Assembly (NCBI RefSeq): GCF_014334135.1
Contig: NZ_CP060497.1
Location: 1,054,001-1,118,000 of the forward strand
DNA from: Olivibacter sp. SDN3
GTDB taxonomy: Bacteria; Bacteroidota; Bacteroidia; Sphingobacteriales; Sphingobacteriaceae
Reading direction: 5' to 3'
Length of the DNA stretch: 64,000 nucleotides
Under the pieces are notes generated by a model. It was not told where the DNA came from. It saw only the letters and a program-made list of their open reading frames with translations, and searched no databases. Position numbers and translations under genes: made by a program. Each line of letters starts with the position of its first letter. Within the stretch, counting starts at the first letter, position 1. Below are positions 4,268 through 36,519 of this stretch, one piece after another.

Positions 4268-4417
4268 AAACAACGAATTTACACGAACGGCCAATATCCA
4301 TATTTTTTTTACAAAAAACACGGTCATAACCATCCATTTCTACCTAAAAAATGACATTTTTGTAGAAAAAATACATCAACCTCAAAAACCATATCTATTC
4401 ACACGCTATAAAACCAT

Positions 4418-6952
4418 ATGCTTAAACAACAATTTATTCTTTTAGGATTAGGTCTATCACTATTAATATCCCTAAACAGCTTTGCCCAACACCGCAAAAT
4501 ACCAAAACGAAAGCCAGCAAAAACAACAATTGCAGACGACAGTACAAGGAAAGCTCCCGAAAAAAAAGAACCAAAAAAAGAACCAAAAAAATTTGAGGAC
4601 TTTCTGAAAAAAGACAGCAAAAGCAACGTAGGCCTTTTTACCATACACCATCAAGAAGAAAAGTATTATTTTGAGATTCCAGACAGTCTTTTGGAACGTG
4701 ACCTACTCGTAGTCAATCGAATTACTAAGTCAGGTGCTGATCTGAGAACAGGAATGAGTGGTTATGCAGGAGACCAGATAAACAAAAACGTTATCCGCTT
4801 TGAAAAAGGGCCTAGAAATAAAATATTTTTACGTAAGATCTCCTTTTCCGAGCGTTCCTCAGACAGCACACAGGCCATGTACCGTGCTGTCATGAATTCA
4901 AATATCCAGCCTATTGCAGGAAGTTTTGATATTGTTGCATTTTCGAAAGACTCCGCCGGCTCAGTGATAGATATGACCGGCTTCATTAATGGCGATAACG
5001 ATATTCTCTTTTTTGCCCCTTATTACAAAAGCACGCTAAGACTCGGAAATTTACAGGCAGATAAATCATATATTTCCAGTATTCGTACCTACCCCATGAA
5101 CACGGAAGTTAGCACTGTCAAAACATACGGAAGAACTCCTCCTCCCGGAACCAGTGGACCCACAGCCGCGCAATTGGGCTCGGGCACAGCAACATTGGAG
5201 TTGAACACCTCGTTGGTCCTTTTACCTAGAGAGCCTATGCAAGCACGTTATTTCGATTCAAGAGTAGGCTATTTCACGGTGAAGTATACGGACTTTGATT
5301 TGAATCCTCAAGGTGTTAAAACGCAATCCCTTATTACCCGTTGGCGTTTAGAGCCAAAAGAAGAAGACCTAGAAAGGTATAAAAGGGGCGAGCCTGTGGA
5401 ACCAATAAAACCAATTGTTTATTATATAGACCCTGCAACCCCCGAAAAATGGGTCCCTTATCTTATTGCCGGCGTAAACGATTGGCAGTCGGCCTTCGAA
5501 CAAGCTGGTTTTAAGAATGCCATAGTTGCAAAACGCGCACCAACACCTGAAGAAGACCCGGAATGGTCACTGGAAGACGCCCGCTATTCAGCCATTGTAT
5601 ACAAACCTTCCACTATACCTAATGCCAGTGGTCCACACGTGAATGATCCTCGAAGCGGGGAAATTCTTGAGAGCCATATCAACTGGTATCACAATGTAAT
5701 GTACCTCTTACGAAACTGGTATTTTGTGCAGGCTTCACCTAATGACGAACGCGCCAGAAAAATGCAATTCGACGACGAACTTATGGGAGAGCTTATTCGT
5801 TTTGTATCTTCCCATGAAGTAGGACATACACTTGGGTTACGGCATAATTTCGGGTCAAGTTCTGCATATCCCGTAGAGAAGCTTCGTGACGCAAAATGGG
5901 TCAAGGAGCACGGTCATGCCGCTTCTATTATGGACTACGCCCGATTCAACTACGTTGCCCAGCCAGGTGATGGCATATCTGGCAAAGATCTGTATCCAAA
6001 AATCAACTATTATGACAAGTGGGCAATTGAATGGGGCTACAAATTGATTCCTGAAGCTCACCATGCGGCACAAGAAACCCCCATACTCAATCAATGGGTA
6101 CTTGGAAAGGCTGACGATCCAAAATACTGGTTTGGAACCGAGAGCAACCCCAATGATCCACGCTCGCAGAATGAAGATTTAGGAGACGACGCGATGCAAG
6201 CAAGTACCTATGGTATTAAAAACCTCCGATTTATTCTTCCTAATTTAAAGAAGTGGACAAGCGAACCAAATAAAGACTATGAAAATCTCGGGACAATGTA
6301 TGGCGAGCTCATCAATCAATTTGGAAGGTACGCCGGCCATGTAGCAAAAAATGTCGGAGGAATTTATGAAACGCCGAAAACAATTGAACAATCGGGAACC
6401 GTTTACGAACATGTATCTAAAAACAAACAGCACAAAGCGATGCTCTTCCTGTCAACGGAAATATTTGATGCTCCAAAATGGCTAATTAATTATGAGATCG
6501 GCAACCTGAGTGGCTCTGATCCTATTGAATTGATCGGTAAGGTTCAAAAAAGCACTTTAGACCGTATATTATCAACACGCACCTTAAGCAACCTTATTCA
6601 AGCTGAAGTACAAGAAGGTAGCAGGGCTTATACAATAAAGGATTTATTCACCGATTTCGACGCCGGCATTTGGAGCGAGCTCAATAGTAAGAAGGCAATA
6701 GATGTTTATAAAAGAAATCTTCAGAAACATTATGTAAACAATCTAATAAAACTCCTATCTCCTCCAACAAACGGAGAATCCTCTGCTGACCCTACAAAAT
6801 CGGATGTATCGAGTGTTGCTAGGGGACAGCTCATCAGTCTTCAAAAAAATATCAGTGGTGCAATCACCGGAACGACAGATACGTTAAGCAAATATCATTT
6901 ACAAGACCTATCAGAAAGGATAAGAATAACACTCCAACCGGGTAGTAAATAG
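4418..6952 (+). CDS. Secreted zinc-dependent metalloprotease (DUF5117/DUF5118/DUF4953 architecture)
   Basis: The 844-residue protein begins with a signal peptide (MLKQQFILLGLGLSLLISLNSFAQ region) and a lysine-rich, probably disordered segment to about residue 65. The N-terminal and central parts resemble the DUF5118/DUF5117 domains seen in Bacteroidota proteases. The catalytic core has the metzincin-type zinc motif HEVGHTLGLRH, with H466, E467, H470 and H476. A SIMDYARFNY segment (about 504-513) provides the Met-turn. The C-terminal 300 residues are the DUF4953-like helical part. It probably acts in the periplasm or outside the cell; its substrate is unknown. It is transcribed alone and ends at a strong bidirectional terminator. 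Confidence 0.88.
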   Translation: MLKQQFILLGLGLSLLISLNSFAQHRKIPKRKPAKTTIADDSTRKAPEKKEPKKEPKKFEDFLKKDSKSNVGLFTIHHQEEKYYFEIPDSLLERDLLVVNRITKSGADLRTGMSGYAGDQINKNVIRFEKGPRNKIFLRKISFSERSSDSTQAMYRAVMNSNIQPIAGSFDIVAFSKDSAGSVIDMTGFINGDNDILFFAPYYKSTLRLGNLQADKSYISSIRTYPMNTEVSTVKTYGRTPPPGTSGPTAAQLGSGTATLELNTSLVLLPREPMQARYFDSRVGYFTVKYTDFDLNPQGVKTQSLITRWRLEPKEEDLERYKRGEPVEPIKPIVYYIDPATPEKWVPYLIAGVNDWQSAFEQAGFKNAIVAKRAPTPEEDPEWSLEDARYSAIVYKPSTIPNASGPHVNDPRSGEILESHINWYHNVMYLLRNWYFVQASPNDERARKMQFDDELMGELIRFVSSHEVGHTLGLRHNFGSSSAYPVEKLRDAKWVKEHGHAASIMDYARFNYVAQPGDGISGKDLYPKINYYDKWAIEWGYKLIPEAHHAAQETPILNQWVLGKADDPKYWFGTESNPNDPRSQNEDLGDDAMQASTYGIKNLRFILPNLKKWTSEPNKDYENLGTMYGELINQFGRYAGHVAKNVGGIYETPKTIEQSGTVYEHVSKNKQHKAMLFLSTEIFDAPKWLINYEIGNLSGSDPIELIGKVQKSTLDRILSTRTLSNLIQAEVQEGSRAYTIKDLFTDFDAGIWSELNSKKAIDVYKRNLQKHYVNNLIKLLSPPTNGESSADPTKSDVSSVARGQLISLQKNISGAITGTTDTLSKYHLQDLSERIRITLQPGSK

Positions 6953-13932: not shown

Positions 13933-15021
13933 ATGACATTTGAAGAATTCTTCGTAAAAAAGAAAATAGATCTACATCTTTTGAAAAAAGTAGAACCTCT
14001 TTTATATCAGGAATTTAGAAGCCATTTTGAGCAAATGGGTGAAAGAAGTTTTGATCATACGAAGAAATATTGGTTCAATCGCCTTAGAAAAAATTTTCTT
14101 TTAAAAGATGTTTTAGAAGACTCTAAACCCACTACCTCTAAGACATCACCCCTTGATGAAAATAAAATTATTGCTTCAAAAGAAGCTCCGCAAGCAGTTA
14201 AACCCAGCGGATTCAAACCTCGTTTTAAGCCCAGTGTAACCGGTAAGTCCAAAACACCTGAAGACAGCGAGGCTCAGAAAAGTGAAGAAACGAAAATCCA
14301 GGAAAATAAAACAGAAGGTACATCGGAAGCAACAAAAGAACCAACGCCCAAACCCCTCGGATTCAAACCTCGTTTTAAGCCCGGTGTAACCGGTAAGTCC
14401 AAAACACCTGAAGACAGCGAGGCTCAGAAAAGTGAAGAAACGAAAACCCAGGAAAATAAAACAGAAGGTACATCGGAAGCAACAAAAGAACCAACGCCCA
14501 AACCCCTCGGATTCAAACCTCGCTTTAAGCCCGGTGTAACCGGTAAGTCCAAAACACCTGAAGACAGCGAGGCTCAGAAAAGTGAAGAAACGAAAACCCA
14601 GGAAAATAAAACAGAAGGTACATCGGAAGCAACAAAAGAACCAACGCCCAAACCCCTCGGATTCAAACCCCGCTTTAAGCCCGGTGTAACCGGTAAATCC
14701 AAAACACCTGAAGACAGCGAGGCTCAGAAAAGTGAAGAAACGAAAACCCAGGAAAATAAAACAGAAGGTACATCGGAAGCAACAAAAGAACCAACGCCCA
14801 AACCCCTCGGATTCAAACCTCGCTTTAAGCCCGGTGTAACCGGTAAATCCAAAACACCTGAAGACAGCGAGGCTCAGAAAAGTGAAGAAACGAAAACCCA
14901 GGAAAATAAAACAGAAGGTACATCGGAAGCAACAAAAGAACCAACGCCCAAACCCCTCGGATTCAAACCTCGCTTTAAGCCCGGAAGGCGTGACAATAAC
15001 GATCAGTCCAAAGACACTTAA
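13933..15021 (+). CDS. Protein of unknown function with five perfect 50-residue tandem repeats
   Basis: The 362-residue protein has a conserved-looking charged helical N-terminal part (about 1-65: FEEFFVKKKIDLHLLKKVEP, then YWFNRLRKNFLLKD). It continues into five 50-residue repeats and one partial copy. Each repeat begins GFKPRFKPGVTGKSKTPEDS and ends TKEPTPKPL, and is rich in Lys, Glu, Thr and Pro, so it should be disordered. No signal peptide or membrane segment is seen. The basic GFKPRFKP motif alternates with acidic stretches, which could suit nucleic-acid or ribosome binding (inference only). The stop is 6 nt from the stop of the convergent dipeptidase gene. I do not recognise the family. 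Confidence 0.75.
   Translation: MTFEEFFVKKKIDLHLLKKVEPLLYQEFRSHFEQMGERSFDHTKKYWFNRLRKNFLLKDVLEDSKPTTSKTSPLDENKIIASKEAPQAVKPSGFKPRFKPSVTGKSKTPEDSEAQKSEETKIQENKTEGTSEATKEPTPKPLGFKPRFKPGVTGKSKTPEDSEAQKSEETKTQENKTEGTSEATKEPTPKPLGFKPRFKPGVTGKSKTPEDSEAQKSEETKTQENKTEGTSEATKEPTPKPLGFKPRFKPGVTGKSKTPEDSEAQKSEETKTQENKTEGTSEATKEPTPKPLGFKPRFKPGVTGKSKTPEDSEAQKSEETKTQENKTEGTSEATKEPTPKPLGFKPRFKPGRRDNNDQSKDT
14209..14985 (+). repeat. 150-bp tandem repeat, five full copies plus a partial copy, in frame
   Basis: Copies start at 14209, 14359, 14509, 14659 and 14809, and a short sixth begins at 14959. The period is exactly 150 bp. Copies 2-5 differ at only a few synonymous positions (cgt/cgc, aag/aaa, cct/ccc). 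Copy 1 has two amino-acid changes (Ser for Gly, Ile for Thr). The near identity implies recent expansion and a likely variable copy number. Confidence 0.95.
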
Positions 15022-15027
15022 AATAAA

Positions 15028-16170
15028 TTATTGCTCCTGTGCCTTTATCACTCGTAACACATTTTCACCTAACACTTTACGAACATCTTGCCTGCTATAG
15101 CCACACTGCCTTAACGCCCGTACTAAATTCGGGTAAGAAGACACATCGTCTAATTCCAGTGGCGTAATGCTCATTCCGTCGAAGTCTGCACCTATCGCTA
15201 CATGGTCAATCCCAACTAGTTTTACTAGATAATCAATATGATCAACCAATAAAGATAAAGGGGGTCTCAAGTGCTGTTTAGCTTCGGCAGGTAATAATCT
15301 ATATTTTTCATCGATGGGCCTATTAACGCTATCCGTTTCCGAAACGTACTTGCTATAAAGTACGGAAAGTTTTCTCCGGTAGCTCGGATCCAGAAAGTCG
15401 GCATAAAAATTTACGCCGATCACACCGCCATTTTTTGCAATAGCCCTAATTTGACCATCCTTTACATTTCTATAATGCGGGTTTATTGCATATACGTCGC
15501 TATGCGAAACAAAAACAGGTTTGGTTGTTATCTCCAGCGCATCATAAAATGTCTGCTCTCCAACATGTGATAAATCAACAATCATTCCCAATGTATTCAT
15601 ATGCCTGATTACTTTTCTTCCAAAATCGTTTAAGCCTTTTTGCTTTGCTTTTTTGTTACTTTCGTCGATCGCGGATGAAGCCCAATCTGTACTATTATTC
15701 CAAGTAAGCGTTAGGTAACGTACCCCTCGTTGGTATAAACTATCAATATAGTCTATACGATTTTCTATCATATGCCCACCTTCAACGCCAATCATAGCTA
15801 CTATTTTATGCTGTCGCAATCCATTTTCTATGTCCTGGGCATTATGTGCCAACATAATATAATCGCCATTCTCCTTAACAACATTATACAACGCATCAAT
15901 CTGCCGATTTGCATACCGAAAAGGTTGGGCTTTCTCGCCATCGCACCAAACAGAGAAGAACTGAACATTCACCCCTCCCTCCTTCAATCTCGGAATATCA
16001 GTATGTCCTGTTGTTAATCGTTTAGCAATATCTTTCCCCCTCATAATCGTTTCGGAGAGAACATCATTGTGAAGATCCACTAGTACTTCCTGGTAATCGG
16101 GATTCTCTTTTTGCTGTGCAGGTAGGTTCAGCCAAATAACCAAGCAAATAATCAGCGATTTAAGTTTCAT
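15028..16170 (-). CDS. Membrane dipeptidase, peptidase family M19
   Basis: This is a zinc dipeptidase of the renal dipeptidase family that hydrolyses dipeptides, often with little side-chain selectivity. From the ATG at 16170 (380 residues) the protein has a signal peptide (MKLKSLIICLVIWLNLPAQQ). Metal-site motifs are VDLHNDV (H34, D36), GVEGGHMIE (Glu ligand), FVSHSDVYA (His ligand), HYRN and IGADFDG. The frame extends to 16206, but the hydrophobic signal begins at the internal Met. It is convergent with the repeat-protein gene and divergent from the SNF2 helicase gene, with only 74 bp for both promoters. Confidence 0.9.
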   Translation of the reverse strand: MKLKSLIICLVIWLNLPAQQKENPDYQEVLVDLHNDVLSETIMRGKDIAKRLTTGHTDIPRLKEGGVNVQFFSVWCDGEKAQPFRYANRQIDALYNVVKENGDYIMLAHNAQDIENGLRQHKIVAMIGVEGGHMIENRIDYIDSLYQRGVRYLTLTWNNSTDWASSAIDESNKKAKQKGLNDFGRKVIRHMNTLGMIVDLSHVGEQTFYDALEITTKPVFVSHSDVYAINPHYRNVKDGQIRAIAKNGGVIGVNFYADFLDPSYRRKLSVLYSKYVSETDSVNRPIDEKYRLLPAEAKQHLRPPLSLLVDHIDYLVKLVGIDHVAIGADFDGMSITPLELDDVSSYPNLVRALRQCGYSRQDVRKVLGENVLRVIKAQEQ

Positions 16171-16244
16171 TTTGTTGTTGTTGATCAATATAATGCAATA
16201 TATCACTAAAATTCTTTATATTTAATGCTTTTTTAATTGTTCAG

Positions 16245-23493: not shown

Positions 23494-24951
23494 CTACCAC
23501 TTCCAATCGCCAGAAATACGCAAAGCTTCTTCCAGATTATTTTTGATCATAAGATCTTTAACTTCCTCATCGGATAGTTTCTTCGCTGTGATCTTCCCGG
23601 CATTTGCTAGCCCAAAAGCCAGCATAGCATTAAACCTTACCGTATTTTTTATTCCGTTTTTATCTACAAGGTCGAAACTATCACAGTCGGCATGATAGCA
23701 ATTAAGCACATCTTTACTTAAATAACTATCGCCGCCACCACCCGTAGGTATTCCTTCCAGCATAAAGGGCTGATGATCACTGTGCAATCCCGCTCTTGCT
23801 TCAAAGTTATTTTTAAATGTCGTATCTATTGATTTCACCTCTGCGCCGATCGATTCAAACAGGGCTCTACTCTCCTCGGTACTAGCCTGAAAGCTTTTCG
23901 GGTCATTGGTCATATCGTAGTTCAGCATATATTTAATATGATCAATACTTTTATCAGCAATGGCTCGCTCAACGTAAGCCTTTGATCCCAATAACCCTTC
24001 TTCCTCTCCCATAAACAACACAAACTCTATTGTTCTTTTCGGTCTAACATCAAGTTTTTTTAAGGTACGCGCCATATCTATCACGGCAAAAGACCCTATC
24101 CCATTATCAATTGCACCCGTAGCTAAGTCCCAACTATCCAAATGCCCACCTATCACAATTTTCTCGTCAGGTAACCCATCTCCTTTTATCCGTGCTACTA
24201 CATTCCTTGCAGTAATTTTACCGGCATGATTAGTCATATCTATTGCAGCGGTTAACTGATCTTTACCAACAAGGTTCTCCTTAAGCGCAAGCCCATCTTC
24301 CAATCCGATACAGATGGCCGGTATTGGTATTAAAGATCCTGTTACAGAGGCTGTACCTGTTAACAAAACTCCCCCAGGAACGGTATTGTATAAAATCACT
24401 CCTTTTGCGCCGTACTTTATAGCCAAGGCCGTTTTTTCCGAACGGTGGAGATTTTTCGTACCCTCTTTTGCATCAGGCAAAACACCTAGGTAGGCTAATA
24501 CAATTTTATCTTTTGCTTTCTCCACATCGGCCAGATAGTCTGCTTCCGTCCCACTTCCCATATCAACTATATCTCCTGTTAAACTTACTTTTTCAGGAGA
24601 GTGCGCTAAAGAGACTGCTTTTATCTCTTCAAAATCACCACTCCCTTTTTTAATCTTAAAACGGAGCGACTCCCTACTCCAACTATCCGCCATAAAAGGT
24701 TGAAAGGTTACTTCATCTAAACCGTAAGATTGAAGCAAATCATATGCGTACTGCTCGGCCTTTTGACCATTTTCTGAACCCGTAAGCCGATGACCGATCT
24801 GTTCGGTTGCATTTTTTAGATTATTATAGGCTTCGGTATTATGGAGAACGTCTTGATTGATAAGATTAAATATCTCCTTGCTATTTTCAGGAGTTTGTGC
24901 AGTAACTTTTAAGCAAAATAAGATAGCTAGGGCGAGCGCAAATTTATTCAT
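23494..24951 (-). CDS. Secreted M28-family zinc aminopeptidase/carboxypeptidase with PA domain
   Basis: The 485-residue protein has a signal peptide (MNKFALALAILFCLKVTAQ). A protease-associated domain (about 110-240) is inserted before the catalytic part. The two-zinc M28 site shows GGHLDSWD (H270, D272), AIDNGIGS (Asp), FMGEEEGLLGS (Glu pair), NYDMTND (Asp) and the final HSDHQPF (His). It resembles plasma glutamate carboxypeptidase-type enzymes that release amino acids from peptides in the periplasm. The ATG at 24951 is preferred; the TTG two codons upstream lies inside a TAAGTTTG promoter box. It is convergent with fcl. Confidence 0.92.
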   Translation of the reverse strand: MNKFALALAILFCLKVTAQTPENSKEIFNLINQDVLHNTEAYNNLKNATEQIGHRLTGSENGQKAEQYAYDLLQSYGLDEVTFQPFMADSWSRESLRFKIKKGSGDFEEIKAVSLAHSPEKVSLTGDIVDMGSGTEADYLADVEKAKDKIVLAYLGVLPDAKEGTKNLHRSEKTALAIKYGAKGVILYNTVPGGVLLTGTASVTGSLIPIPAICIGLEDGLALKENLVGKDQLTAAIDMTNHAGKITARNVVARIKGDGLPDEKIVIGGHLDSWDLATGAIDNGIGSFAVIDMARTLKKLDVRPKRTIEFVLFMGEEEGLLGSKAYVERAIADKSIDHIKYMLNYDMTNDPKSFQASTEESRALFESIGAEVKSIDTTFKNNFEARAGLHSDHQPFMLEGIPTGGGGDSYLSKDVLNCYHADCDSFDLVDKNGIKNTVRFNAMLAFGLANAGKITAKKLSDEEVKDLMIKNNLEEALRISGDWKW

Positions 24952-24954
24952 GCA

Positions 24955-24962
24955 CAAACTTA
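24955..24962 (-). promoter_or_regulatory. -7 box directly before the M28 peptidase gene (leaderless)
   Basis: The minus strand reads TAAGTTTG, then TGC, then ATG, leaving only 3 nt between the box and the start codon. The mRNA would begin at or inside the start codon region. No TTG at ideal spacing is seen. Confidence 0.4.
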
Positions 24963-27544: not shown

Positions 27545-28766
27545 AATATTATGCTGCTACATCTGCGCTTTAGTAGTTGCTTCATTTCCTGCAGCTGCTC
27601 AAGGGAGAGGGGATGACAGTGCTTTCGAGAAGCATATATTAGGGATTGTGGAACACGCGGAAAGATTAGGTCAGGGTATTGCTCGTAAAGTAAAAGATAT
27701 TGATACAGATGAGTTAGTTAGAAATGCTGAAAAAATCGCCCGGTTATCTGAAGAACATGCCGAAAAACTGGCCGATAAATTTCAAGAGATAGACTGGGAT
27801 CAGATGAATAGCCCCTTCCAACACATCGAGCCGTATGAACTGAAAGCAGACGCTAATAGCGTGGAGGAAAGAAAAACGATTCAAAAGGTTTATATGATCT
27901 CAAAGAACACCCCATTAACTATTGATAATAGGTATGGAAAAGTACAAGTAAACACGTGGTCGAAGAATGAAATTAAAGTAGACATTACTATCCGTGCCGT
28001 GGAAGCTTCCGGAAGCAAGGCCCAAGAAATTATAAACAGTGTAACGATTAGCGAGTCAAAATCACCGAATAGCATTTCCCTGAACACGCAAATCAACAGG
28101 GGTAAATCAAGTTGGTGGAACAATATGGTAAGTGGCAGCAATAGGGGCGTTGAAATAAATTATAACATCTACTTGCCAAAAAGCAACGAGCTTTCAATTA
28201 ATAATAAATACGGAAGCGTTGTTTTGCCCGATTTGGATGGAAACCTTAAGGTTGATGTATCGTATGGCAGCTTAAATGCAGGAAAATTATCCGGAAATAA
28301 TATTAGTATAAGTTCTAGCTATGGCTCGGCTAAGATAGCTTCAGTTAAAGACGCCGCGCTAGATTTTAAATATGGTAGTATCGATCTAGGAGAAGCAAAC
28401 AATATTAAACTAAACATAGGTTATTGCGGCGGAAGCAATGTGGGCCGACTCATGAACTCTGGAGATATATCCGTAAAATATTCCGGAGGCTTTAGCGTAG
28501 GTTTAGATAAAGCCATCAACAAGCTCAATTTGGATGCCGCCTATTCGCCCAGTAACATCAAAATAGATCCGAACGCTAATTTCACCTACCAAGTAAATGT
28601 TAGCTATGGTAATTTTAATCCAGGTAAATGCATCGTCACCAAAGAAGATCCTGCCCCAGATAGCCGTGGGCCCAAATTACATAAAAGCTATAGCGGCTAT
28701 TACGGAAAAGATGCTAGCAATCATATCGCTATAGATTCAAAATATGGAACTATTAAGTTTCAGTGA
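27531..28766 (+). CDS. DUF4097-type putative adhesin, secreted
   Basis: The 411-residue protein has a signal peptide (MRTYKILCCYICALVVASFPAAAQ) and a charged helical part (25-110). From about 125 it has a beta-rich region built of recurring short motifs ending in YGSV, YGSL, YGSA, YGSI and YGTI. This is the beta-helix pattern of DUF4097 (putative adhesin) proteins. It overlaps the preceding gene by 14 nt, implying translational coupling, and ends at a rho-independent terminator. Probably periplasmic or surface; function unknown, likely part of an envelope-stress response. Confidence 0.82.
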   Translation: MRTYKILCCYICALVVASFPAAAQGRGDDSAFEKHILGIVEHAERLGQGIARKVKDIDTDELVRNAEKIARLSEEHAEKLADKFQEIDWDQMNSPFQHIEPYELKADANSVEERKTIQKVYMISKNTPLTIDNRYGKVQVNTWSKNEIKVDITIRAVEASGSKAQEIINSVTISESKSPNSISLNTQINRGKSSWWNNMVSGSNRGVEINYNIYLPKSNELSINNKYGSVVLPDLDGNLKVDVSYGSLNAGKLSGNNISISSSYGSAKIASVKDAALDFKYGSIDLGEANNIKLNIGYCGGSNVGRLMNSGDISVKYSGGFSVGLDKAINKLNLDAAYSPSNIKIDPNANFTYQVNVSYGNFNPGKCIVTKEDPAPDSRGPKLHKSYSGYYGKDASNHIAIDSKYGTIKFQ

Positions 28767-28794
28767 CTTGTAGTTACTTATAATTTATTCGGAG

Positions 28795-28827
28795 CCCGAT
28801 CTACTGACACCCAGGGGATCGGGTTTT
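28795..28827 (+). terminator. Terminator of the sigma/anti-sigma/DUF4097 operon
   Basis: CCCGATC (28795-28801) and GATCGGG (28817-28823) form a 7-bp GC-rich stem with a 15-nt loop, followed by TTTTCTG. Confidence 0.85.
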
Positions 28828-29092
28828 CTGCAAAAAAACTTTTGCTCTTCAACGCTCGAATCATCAGAGCAAGCCGAAGATATTTTATACAAACTAGCTA
28901 AAAAAACTAAAACACAATTCACAACACACTGTTTTTCAATAAATTAAAACTGTTACCCAGTGAAACTATAGGCTGGTAAATAACTTTTTACCACTATGAA
29001 TCACCATAAGGTTTAATAGCGTTAATAAGCAATTTTTAGTCTCAGGATGTAACTTGGAAGTTAGCTGTTCGTCCAATAAAAAAGTTATCAAC
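28828..29092. other. Intergenic region upstream of the LanB-type dehydratase gene
   Basis: About 265 bp of AT-rich DNA. It contains a weak palindrome GGTAAA/TTTACC (about 28975-28993) but no TAnnTTTG box, no second precursor-like ORF and no copy of the 12-bp repeat found near the peptide gene. Confidence 0.5.
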
Positions 29093-31918
29093 ATGAAATT
29101 GAAGCTATTGCCAGCCGTATTATGCCGAACTCCTGTATTCTCCTATCAGCAAAACATCTCCCAAATTTGGGAAGAACTTAAGGATGCCATTAAAAATGCT
29201 TCTCCTGATCTATATGAAGTTATAAAAGAAACAACAGGTGATCAGTATACGCAACTGCCCGCTAAAATAAAGTTCGCCTGTTGGAAATATTTTAATAGAG
29301 CATGTTTTCGGGCAACGCCCTTTGGTGCTTTTGGCTCAGTTACCATCGTTCCCTTTAGCGAAGAAGCACCATTTAAAATTACCATCAGTAACGAGGTAAC
29401 ACTTCACCAATTCATCGACTGGAAGCATAAAGATTTTCTTACAGCGCAGGTTGAGCGGGCTTTTCAACAATCGAATTTTTTTCTATGTAATACCTCTGCT
29501 TACACCTCCGGATCGTATATACGTTATATCAACCTAGTAAGGAGCACTTTCGAACTCGCCACTACAAGGCGTCAAGAAATTGTAGAAAGCACGCTTACTT
29601 ATTGCATTGTCAAACAAAGCAAGCAGAATCTGATGGCCTATCTAACCGAACATTATCGGTTAAAAGGTGCGATAGCAGAAGACTTCATTAAACAGCTTAT
29701 CGACTTACAGCTATTAATTACCGATGTAAATGCCAATATTATAGGTGACGATTATTTCCAGCGAATAAAGTTAACTCCTGAAAAGACCGTCGATGACCAA
29801 CGCTATATCATTTCAGAAAAGAAACTCGTTGCAGGCTGCCTCAGCAAGCAGCCATTCAAAATTATCAGCGAAGCAATATTATGTTTAAAGGATCATCTAC
29901 CATTACACAAAAATAAGGATCTGGAAACATTCAAATATAACTTCTCTAGAAAGTTTGAATACCTAGAGGTGCCCCTACTTATGGCGCTAGATCCTGAGAT
30001 AGGCATCGGTTACGGTGCCTTGGAAACAGCGTCCACTTACAGCACCCTGTTAGATGAGTTAAAGTCCCCCAACCCGCCCGCCTTGAACACAACTATTACA
30101 TATGGCCCATTGCAACATTTCATATTGAATAAAATCATTCACAAACAAAAAATTCGCTTGGAAGAGTTTGTTTCAGCGAGCAAACCGTCAGAAGCAACAA
30201 TACTGCCTAATACATTTTCAGCCATTGTGCAATTAGTAGACAACCATATCATCGTTAAACACATTGGAGGTAGTACGGCCAACGCCTTACTCGGTCGCTT
30301 CACTTTAGCAAACGAAAAGGTAAATGAAACGTGCCGGGATATTGTTTTACTGGAGGAACAGGCCAATCCAGAAGTCCTCTTTTTCGACATTGGTTATCAA
30401 GCGGAAAAAACGGTAGACAATGTAAACAGGCGGAAATGCATTTATAACTACGAATTACCCATACTTTCCTGGCCAGAAACCACCGGTTATCTTTCATTGA
30501 ACGACATCATGGTCAGTGTTCGGCAGAACGAAATTATATTACGATCAAAAAAGTATAATAAGCGGATTATCCCCCGCCTTGCCTCCGCTTATAACTATTC
30601 CAGATCCGACCTTTCTGTATATCGCTTTTTCTGTGACCTACAGCATCAGCATATACAAACAAATCTTAATATACATTTAAAGGACTTTTTCCCATCTCTA
30701 GATTATTATCCTAGAATTTATTACAAAAATCTAATATTGTCTCCGCGGATGTGGAAGGTGCCTGAGGAACTATATAAGCAAACGGACAAAGATGATCTGC
30801 TATTATTTTTAACGAATTGGCTGAAGGTAAATAACATCCCACAATACTTCAAATGCGGTAACGGAGATCAAATGCTGTGCTTTAATATGGTCAACAGCGA
30901 GGATTTAAACTATTTTATAAACTATTGTTTGGGGAAGAAATATCTATATATAACAGAGGCCTTCCTTCCCGAAAGACCTTCGATACAAGACGAAAAGAAC
31001 CAACCTTATCTAGAAGAATACATCGTAAGCTTCTCACATAGTGAGGTCGTTTACGAACCGACAAGTAAGGAAACACCGGTTCCCATTTATCAGGAAGAAC
31101 GTCCTATTCATTTACCCGGTAATGAATGGTTATACTTCGAAATCTACTCGCATACCTTACGTAGCAATCAGGTGTTAACAGCCCTTATTGATACGTACCT
31201 GCAATCAGTAAAAAAGCTCATTAAGAATTGGTTTTTCATTCGATATCCCCACCCTGCACCACATATCCGACTTAGACTCCAGTTAAAATCAGGGAACATA
31301 TCAATGCAGTTAATCAAACAGATGGCAGATCTTATTGAAAGCTATTTTAATCAGGGCATTGTTAGTGATTGGCAGATCAAACCATATATTCAGGAGATTG
31401 AACGGTATGGCGTAAGAACAGTGGATGAAATCCAGCGTTACTTCTGTAGTGATAGCAAATATGTACTAAAACTCCTGCGGCACTGCAGAAGTGACCAATT
31501 ATTATATGGTATGACCTTAAGATTTATAAACGATGTACTGGAAGGTCTAGGTCTCCCCCTTCATGATCAGCGTCAGTACATACAACGTATGGCAGATAGC
31601 TTCGCCAGTGAAATGAGTATACATACCACTGCATTCAAAAAAATAAACAAAAGTTACATCTCACTAAAAGATAACATCGGTATACCAGTGCTAAACAAAA
31701 CATTGGAAAAAGCTTATCACCGAACCGTACAGCATTTAGTGTTACTTCTGAGCACCATAGACCATAATAAACGAAGACAACAGTTGATGGTTGATATTGT
31801 ACACATGCATATTAATAGACTTTTTCCAACCGATCAGCGCATGCACGAACTCGTTATTTACCAGTATCATCTAAAATATCTATTGGCAAAGCAAAAGCGT
31901 GTAACGTCTCCACATTAA
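29093..31918 (+). CDS. Full-length LanB-type lantibiotic dehydratase
   Basis: The 941-residue protein has both halves of a class I dehydratase. The N-terminal glutamylation domain (about 10-660) contains the family motif CFRATPFGAFGSV near residue 70. The C-terminal glutamate-elimination (SpaB_C/thiopeptide-type) domain starts near 678 (WLYFEIYS, then WFFIRYPHPAPHIRLRL and EIERYG). Such enzymes use glutamyl-tRNA to convert Ser/Thr of a precursor peptide to Dha/Dhb. The ATG at 29093 replaces an upstream TTG because MKLKLLPAVLCRTPVFSY matches the family N-terminus. No LanC, protease or transporter gene is nearby. Its last 65 nt overlap the convergent histidine kinase gene. The probable substrate is encoded at 33091. 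Confidence 0.9.
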   Translation: MKLKLLPAVLCRTPVFSYQQNISQIWEELKDAIKNASPDLYEVIKETTGDQYTQLPAKIKFACWKYFNRACFRATPFGAFGSVTIVPFSEEAPFKITISNEVTLHQFIDWKHKDFLTAQVERAFQQSNFFLCNTSAYTSGSYIRYINLVRSTFELATTRRQEIVESTLTYCIVKQSKQNLMAYLTEHYRLKGAIAEDFIKQLIDLQLLITDVNANIIGDDYFQRIKLTPEKTVDDQRYIISEKKLVAGCLSKQPFKIISEAILCLKDHLPLHKNKDLETFKYNFSRKFEYLEVPLLMALDPEIGIGYGALETASTYSTLLDELKSPNPPALNTTITYGPLQHFILNKIIHKQKIRLEEFVSASKPSEATILPNTFSAIVQLVDNHIIVKHIGGSTANALLGRFTLANEKVNETCRDIVLLEEQANPEVLFFDIGYQAEKTVDNVNRRKCIYNYELPILSWPETTGYLSLNDIMVSVRQNEIILRSKKYNKRIIPRLASAYNYSRSDLSVYRFFCDLQHQHIQTNLNIHLKDFFPSLDYYPRIYYKNLILSPRMWKVPEELYKQTDKDDLLLFLTNWLKVNNIPQYFKCGNGDQMLCFNMVNSEDLNYFINYCLGKKYLYITEAFLPERPSIQDEKNQPYLEEYIVSFSHSEVVYEPTSKETPVPIYQEERPIHLPGNEWLYFEIYSHTLRSNQVLTALIDTYLQSVKKLIKNWFFIRYPHPAPHIRLRLQLKSGNISMQLIKQMADLIESYFNQGIVSDWQIKPYIQEIERYGVRTVDEIQRYFCSDSKYVLKLLRHCRSDQLLYGMTLRFINDVLEGLGLPLHDQRQYIQRMADSFASEMSIHTTAFKKINKSYISLKDNIGIPVLNKTLEKAYHRTVQHLVLLLSTIDHNKRRQQLMVDIVHMHINRLFPTDQRMHELVIYQYHLKYLLAKQKRVTSPH

Positions 31919-32990
31919 TCATCACCTGCGTTTTGAAATGATTACGCGCGTCTGCCTCGTGCTCGAAGGTGGCAGCATTGCCGTAAGCATTTTTTAATCG
32001 CTTTTCTATATTTTCCAGACCTTTACTAAAGCCAGTTTTATTATGTATGGCATTAATCAAGTTATCTGTCTCAATATAAAGTTTAGCATCCAACATGTAG
32101 ACTTTAATTATTGCTGGGTGATGCTTAAGCGAAAGATTTCCATGTTTAAAGATGTTTTCTACTAGCGTAATAAGAATCAGCGGAATAATGCGAATTTTTT
32201 TCACATCATTTTGAGCCACTATCTCAAAATAGATCTGATCATTCTGTCTTAGTCGATGCAGGTGAATCAAATTATGTACCTGCTCTATTTCTTCTTCAAT
32301 CAAGATGTTTCCTTTATCTTCCCCCGCTTCTATAGCGTAACGCATCATGGCAGAAAGTGTAAGAATAGCATCAGCAGCAATGGGTGCTGACTTTCTTGTT
32401 TTATTATAAATAAAATTGAGCGTATTAAATAAAAAGTGTGGGTTAATTTGAGCTCTTAAATAAGCATTTTGTGCTTTTGCCAGCTCCTGTTCCATTTTCT
32501 GTTGGCCAATAATCTGATTGAGCCGCTGACGTTCAAGCTCAGTTGTATGTTCTTTCTCCTTCAAAAATGTGATCAGAAAATAATATCCACTAGAAAAACC
32601 GACAAAATATAAAGAGCGCCAAACAGATTTTAGTATGAAGCTCTTATTAAAAACCACCTCTGATATACCCGTAATATAAGGGAAAGTAGATGCCGTTAGA
32701 TTAATGACATAAAGTAAGCTGGTATACAGTATTATTTCTAATAACGTAGCCAATGGTAATATCCAGTAAACAGTTTTTCTATTTTTAAACCGAAATACGT
32801 GATACAAAGTAACATGTGCATGAAAATAAAAAAAACATATATTGTAACTATAATGAATGATATAGTCGCCAATCTCACTAAACTTTTGCGTTGCAAAACC
32901 AATTATTAATGTTTCGTAGATAATAAAAGAAGCCCAAGCTACAATATGTATTTTCTTTCTTTTAATGAACTTTTGGATGGTTAAGAACAT
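31854..32990 (-). CDS. LytS/YehU-type sensor histidine kinase
   Basis: The 378-residue protein has four or five hydrophobic segments in residues 10-140 and no recognisable sensor domain. A coiled linker (145-180) leads to the His_kinase motif AQINPHFLFNTLNF with phospho-acceptor H185. The ATPase part shows the N box LVENIFKHG (N279) and a degenerate G box GFSKGLENI. It pairs with the LytTR response regulator at 33260, separated from it by the antisense peptide gene. Its 3' end overlaps the dehydratase gene by 65 nt tail to tail. Its position between dehydratase and precursor suggests that it controls them, perhaps by sensing the product (inference). Confidence 0.9.
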   Translation of the reverse strand: MFLTIQKFIKRKKIHIVAWASFIIYETLIIGFATQKFSEIGDYIIHYSYNICFFYFHAHVTLYHVFRFKNRKTVYWILPLATLLEIILYTSLLYVINLTASTFPYITGISEVVFNKSFILKSVWRSLYFVGFSSGYYFLITFLKEKEHTTELERQRLNQIIGQQKMEQELAKAQNAYLRAQINPHFLFNTLNFIYNKTRKSAPIAADAILTLSAMMRYAIEAGEDKGNILIEEEIEQVHNLIHLHRLRQNDQIYFEIVAQNDVKKIRIIPLILITLVENIFKHGNLSLKHHPAIIKVYMLDAKLYIETDNLINAIHNKTGFSKGLENIEKRLKNAYGNAATFEHEADARNHFKTQVMINVETLHAFALPIDILDDTGK

Positions 32991-33008
32991 TTTGTTGCTG
33001 TTTATAGC

Positions 33009-33041
33009 AGTTTCGTGTAAGGAAAAGCTAGTTTGGTGTAA
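33009..33041. promoter_or_regulatory. 12-bp direct repeat, likely LytTR regulator binding site
   Basis: AGTTTCGTGTAA (33009-33020) and AGTTTGGTGTAA (33030-33041) differ at one base and have a period of 21 bp, two helical turns. LytTR-family regulators bind paired direct repeats with this kind of spacing. The site is 50-82 bp upstream of the peptide ATG and 19-51 bp upstream of the divergent kinase start, so it could control both. Confidence 0.6.
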
Positions 33042-33090
33042 ACTTTTTGTTTCTAAAAAAAATAAATAAGAGCTTTAAAAGAAAAAGGCT

Positions 33091-33219
33091 ATGAAAAAAT
33101 TCAAATTAAAAAAACAAACGCTCTTCGTATTTAAAAACAGCAAGAAAGCTAAAACTGGCGAGAAGGATCCAACAACAACGGGTATGACTTTTACCGTTTC
33201 AGCTACTTCTTATTTTTAA
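33091..33219 (+). CDS. Small RiPP-precursor-like peptide, cysteine-free
   Basis: This is a 42-residue ORF below usual size cut-offs. It begins ATGAAAAAATTC after an AAAAAGG purine stretch. The N-terminal leader is basic with the block KKFKLKKQTLFVF, similar in style to the LxLxKxTI leaders of Bacteroidota RiPP precursors. A lysine-rich linker follows (residues 15-25). The last 17 residues, DPTTTGMTFTVSATSYF, hold eight Ser/Thr (28, 29, 30, 33, 35, 37, 39, 40), no Cys and no Lys. A terminator follows. Context points to modification by the LanB-type enzyme 1.2 kb away. Without Cys no lanthionine ring can form, so the product may keep free dehydrated residues. The gene call rests on context and composition, not on homology. 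Confidence 0.7.
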   Translation: MKKFKLKKQTLFVFKNSKKAKTGEKDPTTTGMTFTVSATSYF

Positions 33220-33250
33220 CTTTTTATACTATAGTTTTAGTTGGTTGGTT

Positions 33251-33281
33251 AAAGGCTGGTCAGTTGTGACGGCCAGTCTTT
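33251..33281. terminator. Terminator after the peptide gene, overlapping the regulator's stop
   Basis: AAAGGCTGG (33251-33259) pairs with CCAGTCTTT (33273-33281), with one G-U pair and a 13-nt loop, followed on plus by ATTGTATTTTTTG. The response-regulator stop codon (33260-33262) lies in the loop, so the hairpin may serve both strands. Confidence 0.75.
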
Positions 33282-33997
33282 ATTGTATTTTTTGCTAAGT
33301 ACTCATAAAATGGATCTTTATAAAAAGTTCCTATGGGTACTAACATGTTATTGGGAAGTTTTACCAAGCTACCTTCTACCTTTTCAATGTAATCCTTTGA
33401 AATAACAAAAGAGCGGTGTACCTGAATAAAATTTGCGGTTTCATCTAACCTCTCTTTTATCTCTTTCAAAGTAAGATAGGTAATTACTTCTTCGGTGGTT
33501 GTATATATCTTAATATAATTTTTGACGCTTTCCACCGCAATAACATCATCGAATTTAATTCTTACAAATCGGTTCCTTTCTTCTGTTGTTTTGACATAAA
33601 AATCTTTAGCCTTATCTATTGTTTGTGCGCTTACAATATCCGTCTTAATAAGTTTATTAATCGCCAACGCAAACTTAGCAAAAGTAAAGGGCTTTAGCAG
33701 GTACGCATCCGCTTCCACTTCAAAAGCCTCAAAGGCATATTTAGTGTGTGCTGTGGTGAATATCAGCTTCTCTGTTTTAGCGCGAATGGCTTTCGATAAA
33801 TCGATCCCTGAAATGAGCGGCATATCAATATCCATAAAAACAAAATCGACCAGATCTCCTTGTGCTATCTCAGCCATTGCCTTTACAGGATCGGTATAAC
33901 TTTTAGCAACCTCCAACTCGGATATCTGCTGAATATAATCGTTCAATATCTCCAGAGCATCGGGCTCATCGTCTATGATGATACATTGATAGGGCAT
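33260..33997 (-). CDS. LytTR-family response regulator
   Basis: The 245-residue protein has a CheY-like receiver domain (1-120; acidic pocket IIDDEPD, phospho-acceptor D56 in FVFMDIDMP). A LytTR DNA-binding domain follows (about 145-240; RFVRIKFDDVIAVESVKNYIKIYT, then FIQVHRSFVI). It is the partner of the histidine kinase at 31854. The short peptide gene is inserted antisense between them. The nearby 21-bp-period direct repeat is a plausible target. A TTG-20-TAnnTTTG promoter lies just upstream of this gene. Confidence 0.94.
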   Translation of the reverse strand: MPYQCIIIDDEPDALEILNDYIQQISELEVAKSYTDPVKAMAEIAQGDLVDFVFMDIDMPLISGIDLSKAIRAKTEKLIFTTAHTKYAFEAFEVEADAYLLKPFTFAKFALAINKLIKTDIVSAQTIDKAKDFYVKTTEERNRFVRIKFDDVIAVESVKNYIKIYTTTEEVITYLTLKEIKERLDETANFIQVHRSFVISKDYIEKVEGSLVKLPNNMLVPIGTFYKDPFYEYLAKNTIKTGRHN

Positions 33998-34017
33998 AAC
34001 TCAAGGTAATGTTTTCC

Positions 34018-34048
34018 CAAACATAGATAAAATCCAATATATTATCAA
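34018..34048 (-). promoter_or_regulatory. Promoter of the LytTR response regulator gene
   Basis: On the minus strand TTG (34048-34046) and TATGTTTG (34025-34018) are 20 bp apart, 20 nt before the ATG at 33997. Confidence 0.6.
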
Positions 34049-34212
34049 TTTTAGTTTGTAACAGGTGATTTTTATCAAAATTCATTAATGGTATGCAAAA
34101 ACTATTGTTTGAAAAGCGTCAAAGACACCCATCTCTATCTAGCTTTTCACTAAAGGGTTTTCCAAACATAAATCAATGTAATTAGCCGATGTTCATCGCT
34201 CTGTCTATTAGA

Positions 34213-36519
34213 TCAATCTTTCACCTTAAAAACGGCTCTTGAAGACATAACTCTGCCACTGGCACTTATCCCTTGAATGTCAATAATATATTCTCCGCTC
34301 CAGTCGGAAGAAAAAAAAGACTTCGTCTGTTCCCCCTCGATGACACTCCAGAAAAGTTGATTCCTAAAATCTGGTTTTTTACTTTTCAGTTCATCCTCGT
34401 TTAGATACGAGGGGGCCTGAAAAGTATTTTGGTTTAATAAACCATTATACTTATACAAGGTCACTTCTGCATCTATTGGATAATCGCCCGACAAAAAAGA
34501 AGTTTTAGCACTTAAGATACCATCATAAATATTCGGCCCGTAGATATAAGTGTCTGTGATTAGCTCTATCGTTTCAATCTTTGCAGGGTCATAGTTGAGG
34601 AAGTACTCAGCTGTCATAGGAACCCCATCAAGTAAAATTAACGGATTGTTTCCCATAAAGGTATTTGCTTTTTCATCTAGAATTCTAAGACTAAAATTAT
34701 TTTGTGACCGTCGCACCATTACCTCTCGTATATATTCATGAAAAGTTTCCTGTAACGTTGCGAACCTTTTATACTTATTCAGGTCATAACTAACATCAGG
34801 GGTGTAATAAAAGGGAATTATACGTGTGTCAATCATTTGCGTTTGCACTTCACCTGCATCAGGGAAATTAAACCGTAGATTTAGTTGATTATTTATATAA
34901 TACTGTAGCAGCGTTTCTTTCGAAATCAATGCCCTTTCTTTAAACGGGTATACTTTATAAGCCTTATGCTTATAAAAAGGCGAGACCTCCTCAATTTGGC
35001 TATTTTCTCCATGAATACCAATGGCTAAAGTCTGCAACCCGCGAATATACCTCAAATCAAAGGTTGCCATTCCACAACTATCTGTTTTCGAAACGTAATA
35101 ATTTGGCGAGGAGCCCACAAGCCCTATGTAAGCATTCTTTAAAATTATTGGCTGATTATCATTTAACGATGTGAATTTAAAAGTTGCTGGCTGGCCTATA
35201 ACATCCGTCATTATCTCCTCGTTAAAACGCTGGTCTTTCCTATAAAAAATCAATAGATTATCTAAATTAATAAAATCCTCTGTCCCTTTTATAGCATTGA
35301 AATAGTCTAATGGTTGCTCAATCTTTCCTTCTAAATCTGATTCTAAGTAATAATACGTGGCGATATCCCTTACGTCCTGTTGCTGTAAGTCGTCAACTCT
35401 ATAAACTGAAATAGAAAAACGGGTAGTTTTTTCGTCCGTATCAGCCATATCGAAAACCGGTTTTATAAACGATCTACGGTTGTAAGAATCCTGTAATTCG
35501 TTTACAGTAAACCCATTACGATCGGGCGTCTTAAATAGCGCGTGCTCTGCCAAGATATCGTTCATTGCATTTCTAACCACAACATATGAAATACCTTCCG
35601 GGAGTACCGCATAATCAAGGGAATCGTTAAGGGAAGCGTATACGTCGGTATCGTATTCTCTTTCTAAAACCTTTTCGCCCTTATGATAAATAGCGAGAGA
35701 AAACTGATTTTCAGTAGTAGCGTTACTGTACTGACCCTTTAACACTATTGATGAAGTCGTATGATAAAGCCGCAGCAAGAATCCTTCACTTTCAACTTTA
35801 GGCATTTCTTTTTCAAATATATGCCCTTGCTCATCTTTTACTATTATATGATACTGATGATGCAACTTCGGTATAAAACTAACCTGTCCTAATCCAAAGG
35901 CAGAGGAACTAAACGTTTCAATAACTTGCTTATCAGCATCGATTATTTCTCCCTGGTAATCAAGCCCCCTACCATATTCATCCACCAACTGCACCACAAT
36001 CCTATTATCCAGGTCGGCCACCAGCTTATAGTTCTCCAACCTAACACTCAAATTTTTAGGTAATTTTTCTGCTGTCGGCATTATTTCGTCCGAGGGATTA
36101 ACGATCAGTAAATCTTTACGGAAGAAACTTTCCTGTCCATATGATTTCATCCGCTCTGTGTAGGCTACAACGATATAAGTACCGGAAGATATCGCCACCG
36201 GTAGCTGAAATTCTCCCTCCCCGGTTCCGTCATCTAGCAATACTTTTGTTTGCGCTATAACAAACGAATGAGCATCCAAAACCTCTACATAAGTAATTTT
36301 AGGGCCTATAGAAGTTTCTCCATTCCCAAGCTCATAAATGTTAAACCAGATCGTTTCTCCAGGCAGGTAAGTACTTTTCGAAATATGAAGATAAACACTT
36401 TCAGGCTGATTGTTCCAGCCCGGATTTGCAAATGCCTGATGAAGCTGAAAAAAGCTTACATAAAAAAATAAGATGATAAAAGATCTATAATTATATGCCA
36501 TACAGCTATTCATTTTCAT
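34213..36519 (-). CDS. Secreted MG2-like protein with an orphan TonB-plug-like C-terminus
   Basis: The 768-residue protein has a signal peptide ending near FANPGW and an N-terminal beta-sandwich that resembles macroglobulin MG2-type domains (SVYLHISKSTYLPGETIWFN). Several beta-rich segments follow. Near 630-690 a segment (PLILLDGVPM, then DPAKIETIELI, then NIYDGILSAKT) resembles the plug of SusC/TonB receptors, but no barrel follows; instead there is a short beta-rich end. It overlaps the DUF4249 gene by 14 nt and so belongs to the TonB/DUF4249 operon. It probably works in the periplasm or at the inner face of the outer membrane; function unknown. Confidence 0.8.
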   Translation of the reverse strand: MKMNSCMAYNYRSFIILFFYVSFFQLHQAFANPGWNNQPESVYLHISKSTYLPGETIWFNIYELGNGETSIGPKITYVEVLDAHSFVIAQTKVLLDDGTGEGEFQLPVAISSGTYIVVAYTERMKSYGQESFFRKDLLIVNPSDEIMPTAEKLPKNLSVRLENYKLVADLDNRIVVQLVDEYGRGLDYQGEIIDADKQVIETFSSSAFGLGQVSFIPKLHHQYHIIVKDEQGHIFEKEMPKVESEGFLLRLYHTTSSIVLKGQYSNATTENQFSLAIYHKGEKVLEREYDTDVYASLNDSLDYAVLPEGISYVVVRNAMNDILAEHALFKTPDRNGFTVNELQDSYNRRSFIKPVFDMADTDEKTTRFSISVYRVDDLQQQDVRDIATYYYLESDLEGKIEQPLDYFNAIKGTEDFINLDNLLIFYRKDQRFNEEIMTDVIGQPATFKFTSLNDNQPIILKNAYIGLVGSSPNYYVSKTDSCGMATFDLRYIRGLQTLAIGIHGENSQIEEVSPFYKHKAYKVYPFKERALISKETLLQYYINNQLNLRFNFPDAGEVQTQMIDTRIIPFYYTPDVSYDLNKYKRFATLQETFHEYIREVMVRRSQNNFSLRILDEKANTFMGNNPLILLDGVPMTAEYFLNYDPAKIETIELITDTYIYGPNIYDGILSAKTSFLSGDYPIDAEVTLYKYNGLLNQNTFQAPSYLNEDELKSKKPDFRNQLFWSVIEGEQTKSFFSSDWSGEYIIDIQGISASGRVMSSRAVFKVKD

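Follow-up and report, generated by a model that had tools for sequence, protein, structure and literature searches.

In a 64,000-nucleotide stretch of the Olivibacter sp. SDN3 genome (assembly GCF_014334135.1, contig NZ_CP060497.1; hereafter the window), the gene for a full-length class I lanthipeptide dehydratase (LanB) was found in one cassette with the genes for a 42-residue peptide lacking cysteine in its Ser/Thr-rich core, a LytS-type sensor histidine kinase and a LytTR response regulator (Table 1). On the available sequences the best explanation, to which we give a probability of roughly 0.6, would be a peptide that is dehydrated by LanB, carries no lanthionine and is tied to its own two-component system. 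A Cys-free precursor of LanB that gives no lanthionine is best supported because the peptide is kept beside LanB homologues, Cys is not consistently linked to them and LanC is absent. Taken separately, LanB and the peptide are very probably true partners, a product without lanthionine is likely, and the peptide may be a signal sensed by the kinase, at slightly less than even odds. The finding of mostly Cys-free, Thr-rich peptides beside LanB and a two-component sensor in many soil Bacteroidota suggests ring-free, possibly signalling, peptides. An earlier reading made from the letters alone (the sequence-only reading) had described a locus of LanB and a Cys-free peptide; the pairing stands, and the two-part unit has to be widened, since the kinase and the regulator, neither of which it mentioned, also belong to the cassette and flank the peptide gene.

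The LanB cassette of Olivibacter sp. SDN3

The LanB open reading frame (ORF) was read from the ATG at 29093, where the homologue alignments begin; an alternative TTG start lies at 29054. Both PF04738 (Lant_dehydr_N, 1.6e-64) and PF14028 (Lant_dehydr_C, 1.4e-50) were matched in the single chain, which bears out the earlier description of a full-length enzyme with glutamylation and elimination domains. The nearest solved sequence was NisB (E 1.5e-29). Counted by position in the pairwise sequence alignment, LanB R69/R73/T75/R726/R728/E768/R771/H904 stand opposite NisB R83/R87/T89/R784/R786/E823/R826/H961, which we take to be the catalytic positions of glutamylation and elimination, and R69/R73/T75 and R726/R728/E768/R771/H904 were invariant in 17/17 homologues. 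Because the residues facing the NisB active-site positions are invariant, both half-reactions appear to be retained, and neither glutamylation nor elimination looks lost. An AlphaFold2 model built from a 17-row alignment (mean predicted local distance difference test score 83.5, predicted template modelling (TM) score 0.70) matched the fold of MadB, NisB and MibB over the whole chain (E 4e-44 to 1e-36, TM-score about 0.55-0.58, root mean square deviation near 18), and the structures of GodF and TbtB were also among the matches. LanB was the only PF04738 gene found in the host genome (6.12 Mb, one contig, completeness 99.99).

The peptide gene begins 1,172 bp downstream of the LanB stop codon, and the last 17 residues of the peptide contain eight Ser/Thr, no Cys and no Lys; composition and position were re-read and agree with the sequence-only reading. 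No credible family match was obtained for the peptide in Pfam and NCBIfam, and an Rfam scan of the region gave nothing credible as RNA. When 28 short ORFs, taken from 28701-29120 and 31801-34250, were compared with 12 relatives, the peptide was matched in 10, and the other ORFs with matches in at least two relatives were all located within or antisense to the LanB, kinase or regulator gene. Outside these genes, the ORF at 28778-28864 (-) had one weak match among the 12 (E 0.003), and the Cys-bearing ORFs at 28785-28922 and 28966-29094 (-) were rejected as alternative precursors, with matches in 0/12. Among the relatives' precursor codons, 4,774 of 5,832 single changes fell at position 3, and the ratio of nonsynonymous to synonymous change (pN/pS) was 0.06, a value taken from 383 non-independent pairs and biased low because the selection required >=75% protein identity. 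Thirty peptides were combined in a profile (A2; 19 from LanB cassettes and 11 from the LanB-free triads described below), which matched the window peptide, itself one row of the profile, at E 2.9e-15 and had no second match in the host genome at E<=0.01.

The kinase gene overlaps the 3' end of LanB by 65 bp, and its product has an H-box and N-terminal hydrophobic segments. The host genome holds 18 LytTR genes, of which chance would put about 0.02 within 4 kb of any one position. In a tree of LytTR proteins including the 17 others of the host, the regulators of peptide loci clustered (3 label changes against 15.2 when shuffled), and 29 of 46 peptide-linked regulators, with that of the window, shared a branch containing none of the 17.

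Conservation of the cassette in related genomes

A LanB search of 301 genomes of the family gave matches in 150, of which 81 reached E<=1e-110 (cassette-type LanB). In a like draw of 301 genomes, a search with the single peptide sequence gave 48 matching genomes at E<=0.1; 47 of these also had a LanB match, cassette-type in 46, while G136 had none, and the peptide match was located <=5 kb from LanB in 26/48. Loci were fetched for a part of the full-length LanB matches (n=60), and the window was added to give 61. Gene clusters corresponding to LanB, kinase and regulator were present in 61/61 of them. The order LanB (+), kinase (-), peptide or peptides (+), regulator (-) was found in 48/61, with a similar peptide in every kinase-regulator gap, and the remaining 13/61 had a different order with a similar peptide adjoining the kinase or the regulator (out of frame in L096). 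In L096 the usual leader lies beside LanB with the Thr-rich core out of frame, which would reflect either a damaged copy or a sequencing error.

A second sample, the best 80 of 164 relatives from a named collection, came chiefly from Pedobacter and Mucilaginibacter, and also from Olivibacter, Hufsiella, Taibaiella and other Bacteroidetes. The total of 141 loci was reduced to 113 distinct LanBs by merging those identical over residues 101-800. Near these, a regulator was found in 113, a kinase in 111 and a related peptide in 109 with a hidden Markov model (HMM), a count that is not an independent rate because the HMM was trained iteratively on the same loci; at each of the other 4 loci a similar peptide, with Cys in every case, was recognised by eye. 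The single-sequence search and the A2 profile are less dependent. At E<=0.01, A2 matched 74 of the 301 genomes, 67 with cassette-type LanB and 7 without it (E 0.0002-0.0081); at E<=1e-5 it matched 66/301, and 66/66 had cassette-type LanB, itself present in 81/301. The peptide is thus kept beside LanB homologues, as the sequence-only reading required of a true precursor, at the 113 distinct LanB loci.

In total 186 peptide readings were collected, 1 to 8 per locus, a few of which may overlap. The mean Thr/Ser fraction of the cores was 0.32, the leader/core boundary in core counts being set by a rule of thumb. Within the genus, L063-L065 and the window keep the peptide leader and have strongly divergent cores (L064, ...ETNTTELLTWTFTN), a divergence that might be expected of recognition specificity.

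Cysteine in the cores and distribution of LanC

A core Cys was present in 13 of the 109 HMM-found loci (16/186 readings). A tree was prepared by a quick method with midpoint rooting from 58 of the 113 cassette LanBs (17/17 with Cys, 41/96 without) and 6 outgroups; L097 has its Cys just ahead of the DPTT motif, and the out-of-frame core of L096 was counted as Cys-free. On the side of the deepest branch (Shimodaira-Hasegawa-like approximate likelihood ratio test 99) that includes the window, Cys occurred in 1/31 sampled rows, immediately preceding the DPTT motif. On the other side, rows with and without Cys were mixed, and the state changed 7 times over the whole tree. Of the five copies in L086, four have TILC and one TILV, and TILM stands in L087 and L095, which neighbour L086 on the tree; because TILC alternates with TILV and TILM, the Cys of L086 behaves like an ordinary hydrophobic residue. 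The Cys-bearing precursor consistently linked to this LanB clade, which the sequence-only reading had named as a counter-finding, was thus not found (30/31 rows on the window's side were Cys-free), and Cys is dispensable by this comparison.

LanC was found neither in the host genome (PF05147 search) nor in the 141 loci (five LanC queries). It was encoded somewhere in 20/60 cassette genomes and absent from 40/60. In a hand-sorted comparison, core Cys and genomic LanC were not associated (3/10 against 17/50 genomes, p 1.0), and lanthionine formation by LanC in trans was rejected on this ground.

Direct repeat upstream of the peptide gene

A direct repeat of period 21, which we take to be a LytTR-type site, lies between the kinase start and the peptide start. 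Repeat pairs with roughly this spacing serve as binding sites for LytTR proteins. After 6 of the 48 loci of the main layout had been removed by a filter, with a later peptide copy used for L095 and L099, period 21 stood out in the remainder, 10/42 loci having at least 9/10 matching bases against 0-3 at 28 other periods. The pattern TTTSGTGTAA-N11-TTTSGTGTAA had a single zero-mismatch match in the 6.1-Mb host genome, the repeat of the window, and the reversed control pattern also had one match. All four cassettes of the genus bear the repeat (0, 0, 0 and 2 mismatches); G037, the one other genome of the genus that was searched, showed neither a repeat match nor a cassette-type LanB. A scan of 32980-33320 for sigma-70-type promoters and terminators gave none, with a consensus that is uninformative for Bacteroidota.

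Similar period-21 pairs recur in the genus before unrelated genes (L123-L138), probably as a shared LytTR-type motif. Those of L134 and L138 lie some hundred bases ahead of a gene that resembles a LytS kinase by eye. Reading by eye showed no exporter or protease at these sites.

LanB-free triads and a second LanB subfamily

Peptide matches away from LanB were also located between a kinase and a regulator. Among loci L034-L062, 23/29 had no LanB within 3 kb, two of them (L041, L047) lying in multi-copy cassette arrays. Of 21 LanB-free triads, 20 (L269-L288, e.g., L276 and L279) were fetched and G157 was left out. Since these triads are without a local LanB, yet every genome with a strong A2 match has one, the distribution suggests that LanB acts in trans on their peptides.

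A TonB/SusC-like gene cluster was noted in 14/20 triads and in 11/20 by a stricter search. Receptors of this type were near 11/20 triads, 8/15 loci of another LanB, 15/113 cassette loci and 0/5 LanC loci, against a background, counted in 5 genomes, of 71 to >=150 Plug genes each; with 15/113 loci only, a general TonB/SusC link of the cassette was dropped and kept as a lead for the triads alone. In L269, L271 and L278, a protein resembling a C39 peptidase ATP-binding cassette (ABC) exporter by eye lies some 4-7 kb from the triad.

The loci of the other LanB (L219-L233, n=15, 27-34% identity, about 1,000 residues) had been intended as negative controls and were dropped as such, because 14/15 stretches hold a kinase and a regulator themselves, 13 within 4 kb (4.7-6.4 kb away in L230; neither in L231). 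A candidate Thr-rich peptide was seen by eye in 12/15, without Cys in 9 of the 12, and no LanC was found in these stretches. They appear to form another subfamily akin to the cassette, within the same bacterial family. Both subfamilies occur together in some genomes, e.g., G287, G268, G172 and G230.

Proposed mechanism and alternative explanations

According to the preferred reading, LanB would glutamylate, with Glu-tRNA, Thr/Ser in the (S/T)DPTT-type core of a short peptide whose leader is basic and then eliminate, to give a dehydrobutyrine (Dhb)-rich peptide without lanthionine. The conserved TxFx[FY]K stretch of the leader is the likely docking strand for the leader-binding site of LanB, and the leader may be removed and the peptide exported by unlinked proteins. 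The LytTR regulator would act on the period-21 repeat ahead of the peptide gene. The kinase would most likely sense the finished peptide or its effect, which would close an autoinducing loop.

Several observations weigh against this reading. A core Cys is carried by 17/113 distinct loci once the 4 by-eye loci are included, the other 96/113 being Cys-free. No exporter or protease is conserved, as no gene cluster beyond LanB, kinase and regulator exceeds 22/61 loci. The 20 kinase-peptide-regulator triads gave no LanB match in stretches of 12-16 kb, so that in these cases LanB would have to act in trans, or else the peptide would function unmodified. Two of the 17 other host LytTRs fell among the peptide-linked regulators, and no similar peptide was seen around them (2 kb each). 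With 2 mismatches allowed, the repeat occurs at 4 other places of the host genome before unrelated genes, and for this reason may not be specific to the cassette regulator. At E<=0.01, 14 LanB-bearing genomes had no A2 match; on reading the locus, 13 of these showed a diverged peptide, which is out of frame in L096, and the last (G169) was outside the sample. A2 is biased toward LanB-bearing genomes because 19 of its 30 rows come from LanB cassettes; the Fisher values for the co-occurrence of A2 and LanB (down to 3e-52) ignore this make-up and, like the counts and other p-values, ignore the relatedness of the genomes.

LanB products are often antibacterial, and the dehydrated peptide could be a secreted antimicrobial or competition peptide whose production is merely controlled by the two-component system. 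As many as 8 peptide copies per locus and the strong divergence of cores even within the genus are in keeping with this; however, no further cluster that might provide immunity, export or proteolysis is found in more than 22/61 loci, the kinase and the regulator are as constant as LanB, and peptide copies lie between kinase and regulator at LanB-free places too, so that we consider it unlikely. The triads whose stretch, as read, contains no LanB would also fit an unmodified peptide that regulates the kinase/regulator pair, LanB having another substrate. We regard this as less probable still: A2 at E<=1e-5 was found in 0/220 genomes that have no cassette-type LanB, and 66/66 strong carriers have that LanB (with the bias of A2 noted above), a peptide is near LanB in 113/113 distinct loci, and the cores are rich in Thr/Ser.

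The least probable alternative, to which we attach very little weight, is a real ring, made either by a LanC in trans from Cys where present or by addition of Lys, Tyr or the N-terminus to Dhb. The 17/113 loci with core Cys, often near the C-terminus, and the 20/60 genomes with LanC somewhere speak for it, whereas the host genome and the 141 loci have no LanC, core Cys is not associated with genomic LanC, the Cys state switches several times on the LanB tree, and the window core has neither Cys nor Lys.

Extending the preferred reading of a ring-free LanB product, we propose tentatively, and with more doubt than belief, that one LanB makes ring-free, Dhb-rich signals for its own cassette and for triads in trans, widely in Sphingobacteriaceae.

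Features of the window

The sequence-only reading had found no LanC, exporter or protease gene in the window. No LanC was found in its 64 kb, and no ABC exporter was seen when ORFs of at least 100 residues were read by eye; the statement does not hold for proteases, as four peptidases are encoded outside the cassette (Table 1). A 362-residue protein at 13933-15021 (+) consists of nearly identical repeats of about 50 residues (KPLGFKPRFKPGVTGKSKTPEDSEAQ...) and had no Pfam match at 1e-5.

Table 1. Coordinates of the cassette genes, the upstream repeat and the peptidase genes in the window
Feature	Position	Strand	Basis or location
LanB, full-length class I dehydratase, 941 aa	29093-31918	+	Pfam, NisB match, AlphaFold2 model
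LytS-type sensor histidine kinase, His_kinase PF06580, H-box QINPHFLFNTLN	31854-32990	-	Pfam 1.2e-19
Direct repeat TTTCGTGTAA-N11-TTTGGTGTAA, period 21, putative LytTR-type site	33011-33041	+	Between kinase start and peptide start
Precursor peptide, 42 aa, leader MKKFKLKKQTLFVFK..., core DPTTTGMTFTVSATSYF (last 17 residues)	33091-33219	+	Homologues at equivalent site; A2 profile
LytTR response regulator	33260-33997	-	Response_reg 5.7e-19 and LytTR 1e-17 (Pfam)
Peptidase S13	2831-4333		Window, outside cassette
Met-zincin peptidase	4418-6952		Window, outside cassette
Peptidase M19	15028-16206		Window, outside cassette
Peptidase M28	23494-24957		Window, outside cassette

Comparison with known systems

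The cassette resembles the nisin system (NisB/NisC with NisRK) in its LanB, which is full-length and has the fold and residues of NisB, its short leader-core precursor and the two-component system of the cluster. Unlike class I lanthipeptide clusters it is without LanC, LanT and LanP and its core is mostly Cys-free, and its regulators are of the LytS/LytTR type, whereas the two-component system of nisin is of the NisK/NisR type. Goadsporin (GodF/GodG) and thiopeptides (TbtB) likewise combine LanB-type dehydration with a peptide lacking lanthionine rings. Those systems have a split LanB acting together with azoline- or pyridine-forming enzymes, whereas the cassette LanB is full-length and the sole recognised enzyme for ribosomally synthesised and post-translationally modified peptides in the cassette. 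In AgrC/AgrA and ComD/ComE, the spacing of LytTR-site repeat pairs is like that found here. In these systems, too, the peptide gene adjoins those of a membrane kinase and a LytTR regulator, as described in PMC8895600 on the LytTR family; by contrast, the cassette has a LytS-type kinase (PF06580), LanB as the modifying enzyme, no conserved AgrB- or ComAB-like gene, and hosts in Bacteroidota.

Class I lanthipeptides of Bacteroidota are exemplified by the pinensins and the Pedobacter lusitanus peptides. Table 1 of PMC3091789 (2010) lists PBAL39_02527, a LanB of Pedobacter sp. BAL39, as clusterless and names no partner genes; at the LanB locus of this strain (L196), presumed to be equivalent, a kinase, a regulator and a peptide are present. 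According to PMC7268733, its large-scale mining started at LanC matches and ORFs without a core Cys were thrown out, so that such a pipeline would be blind to these loci. Passages of PMC10352776 report no LanB in Bacteroidales; the passages considered of PMC8895600, PMC10880069, PMC12328550 and PMC12181424 describe nothing comparable, and in the last the word lanthipeptide is absent. A full-text literature search, judged by title and abstract opening, gave no such system, and an earlier mention is possible, notably in the 2020/2021 work on Pedobacter lanthipeptides.

Significance

Class I dehydratases are usually viewed as carrying out the initial half of lanthionine formation. The link of 113 distinct LanBs with Cys-poor peptides and a LytTR system offers a directly testable example in which LanB chemistry would serve a purpose other than rings, as well as a candidate peptide-signalling system in Bacteroidota. 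If the proposal of ring-free signals made for the cassette and for triads in trans is true, it would define a class of LanB products by signalling and by the lack of thioether rings, with some triads adjoining TonB/SusC uptake genes.

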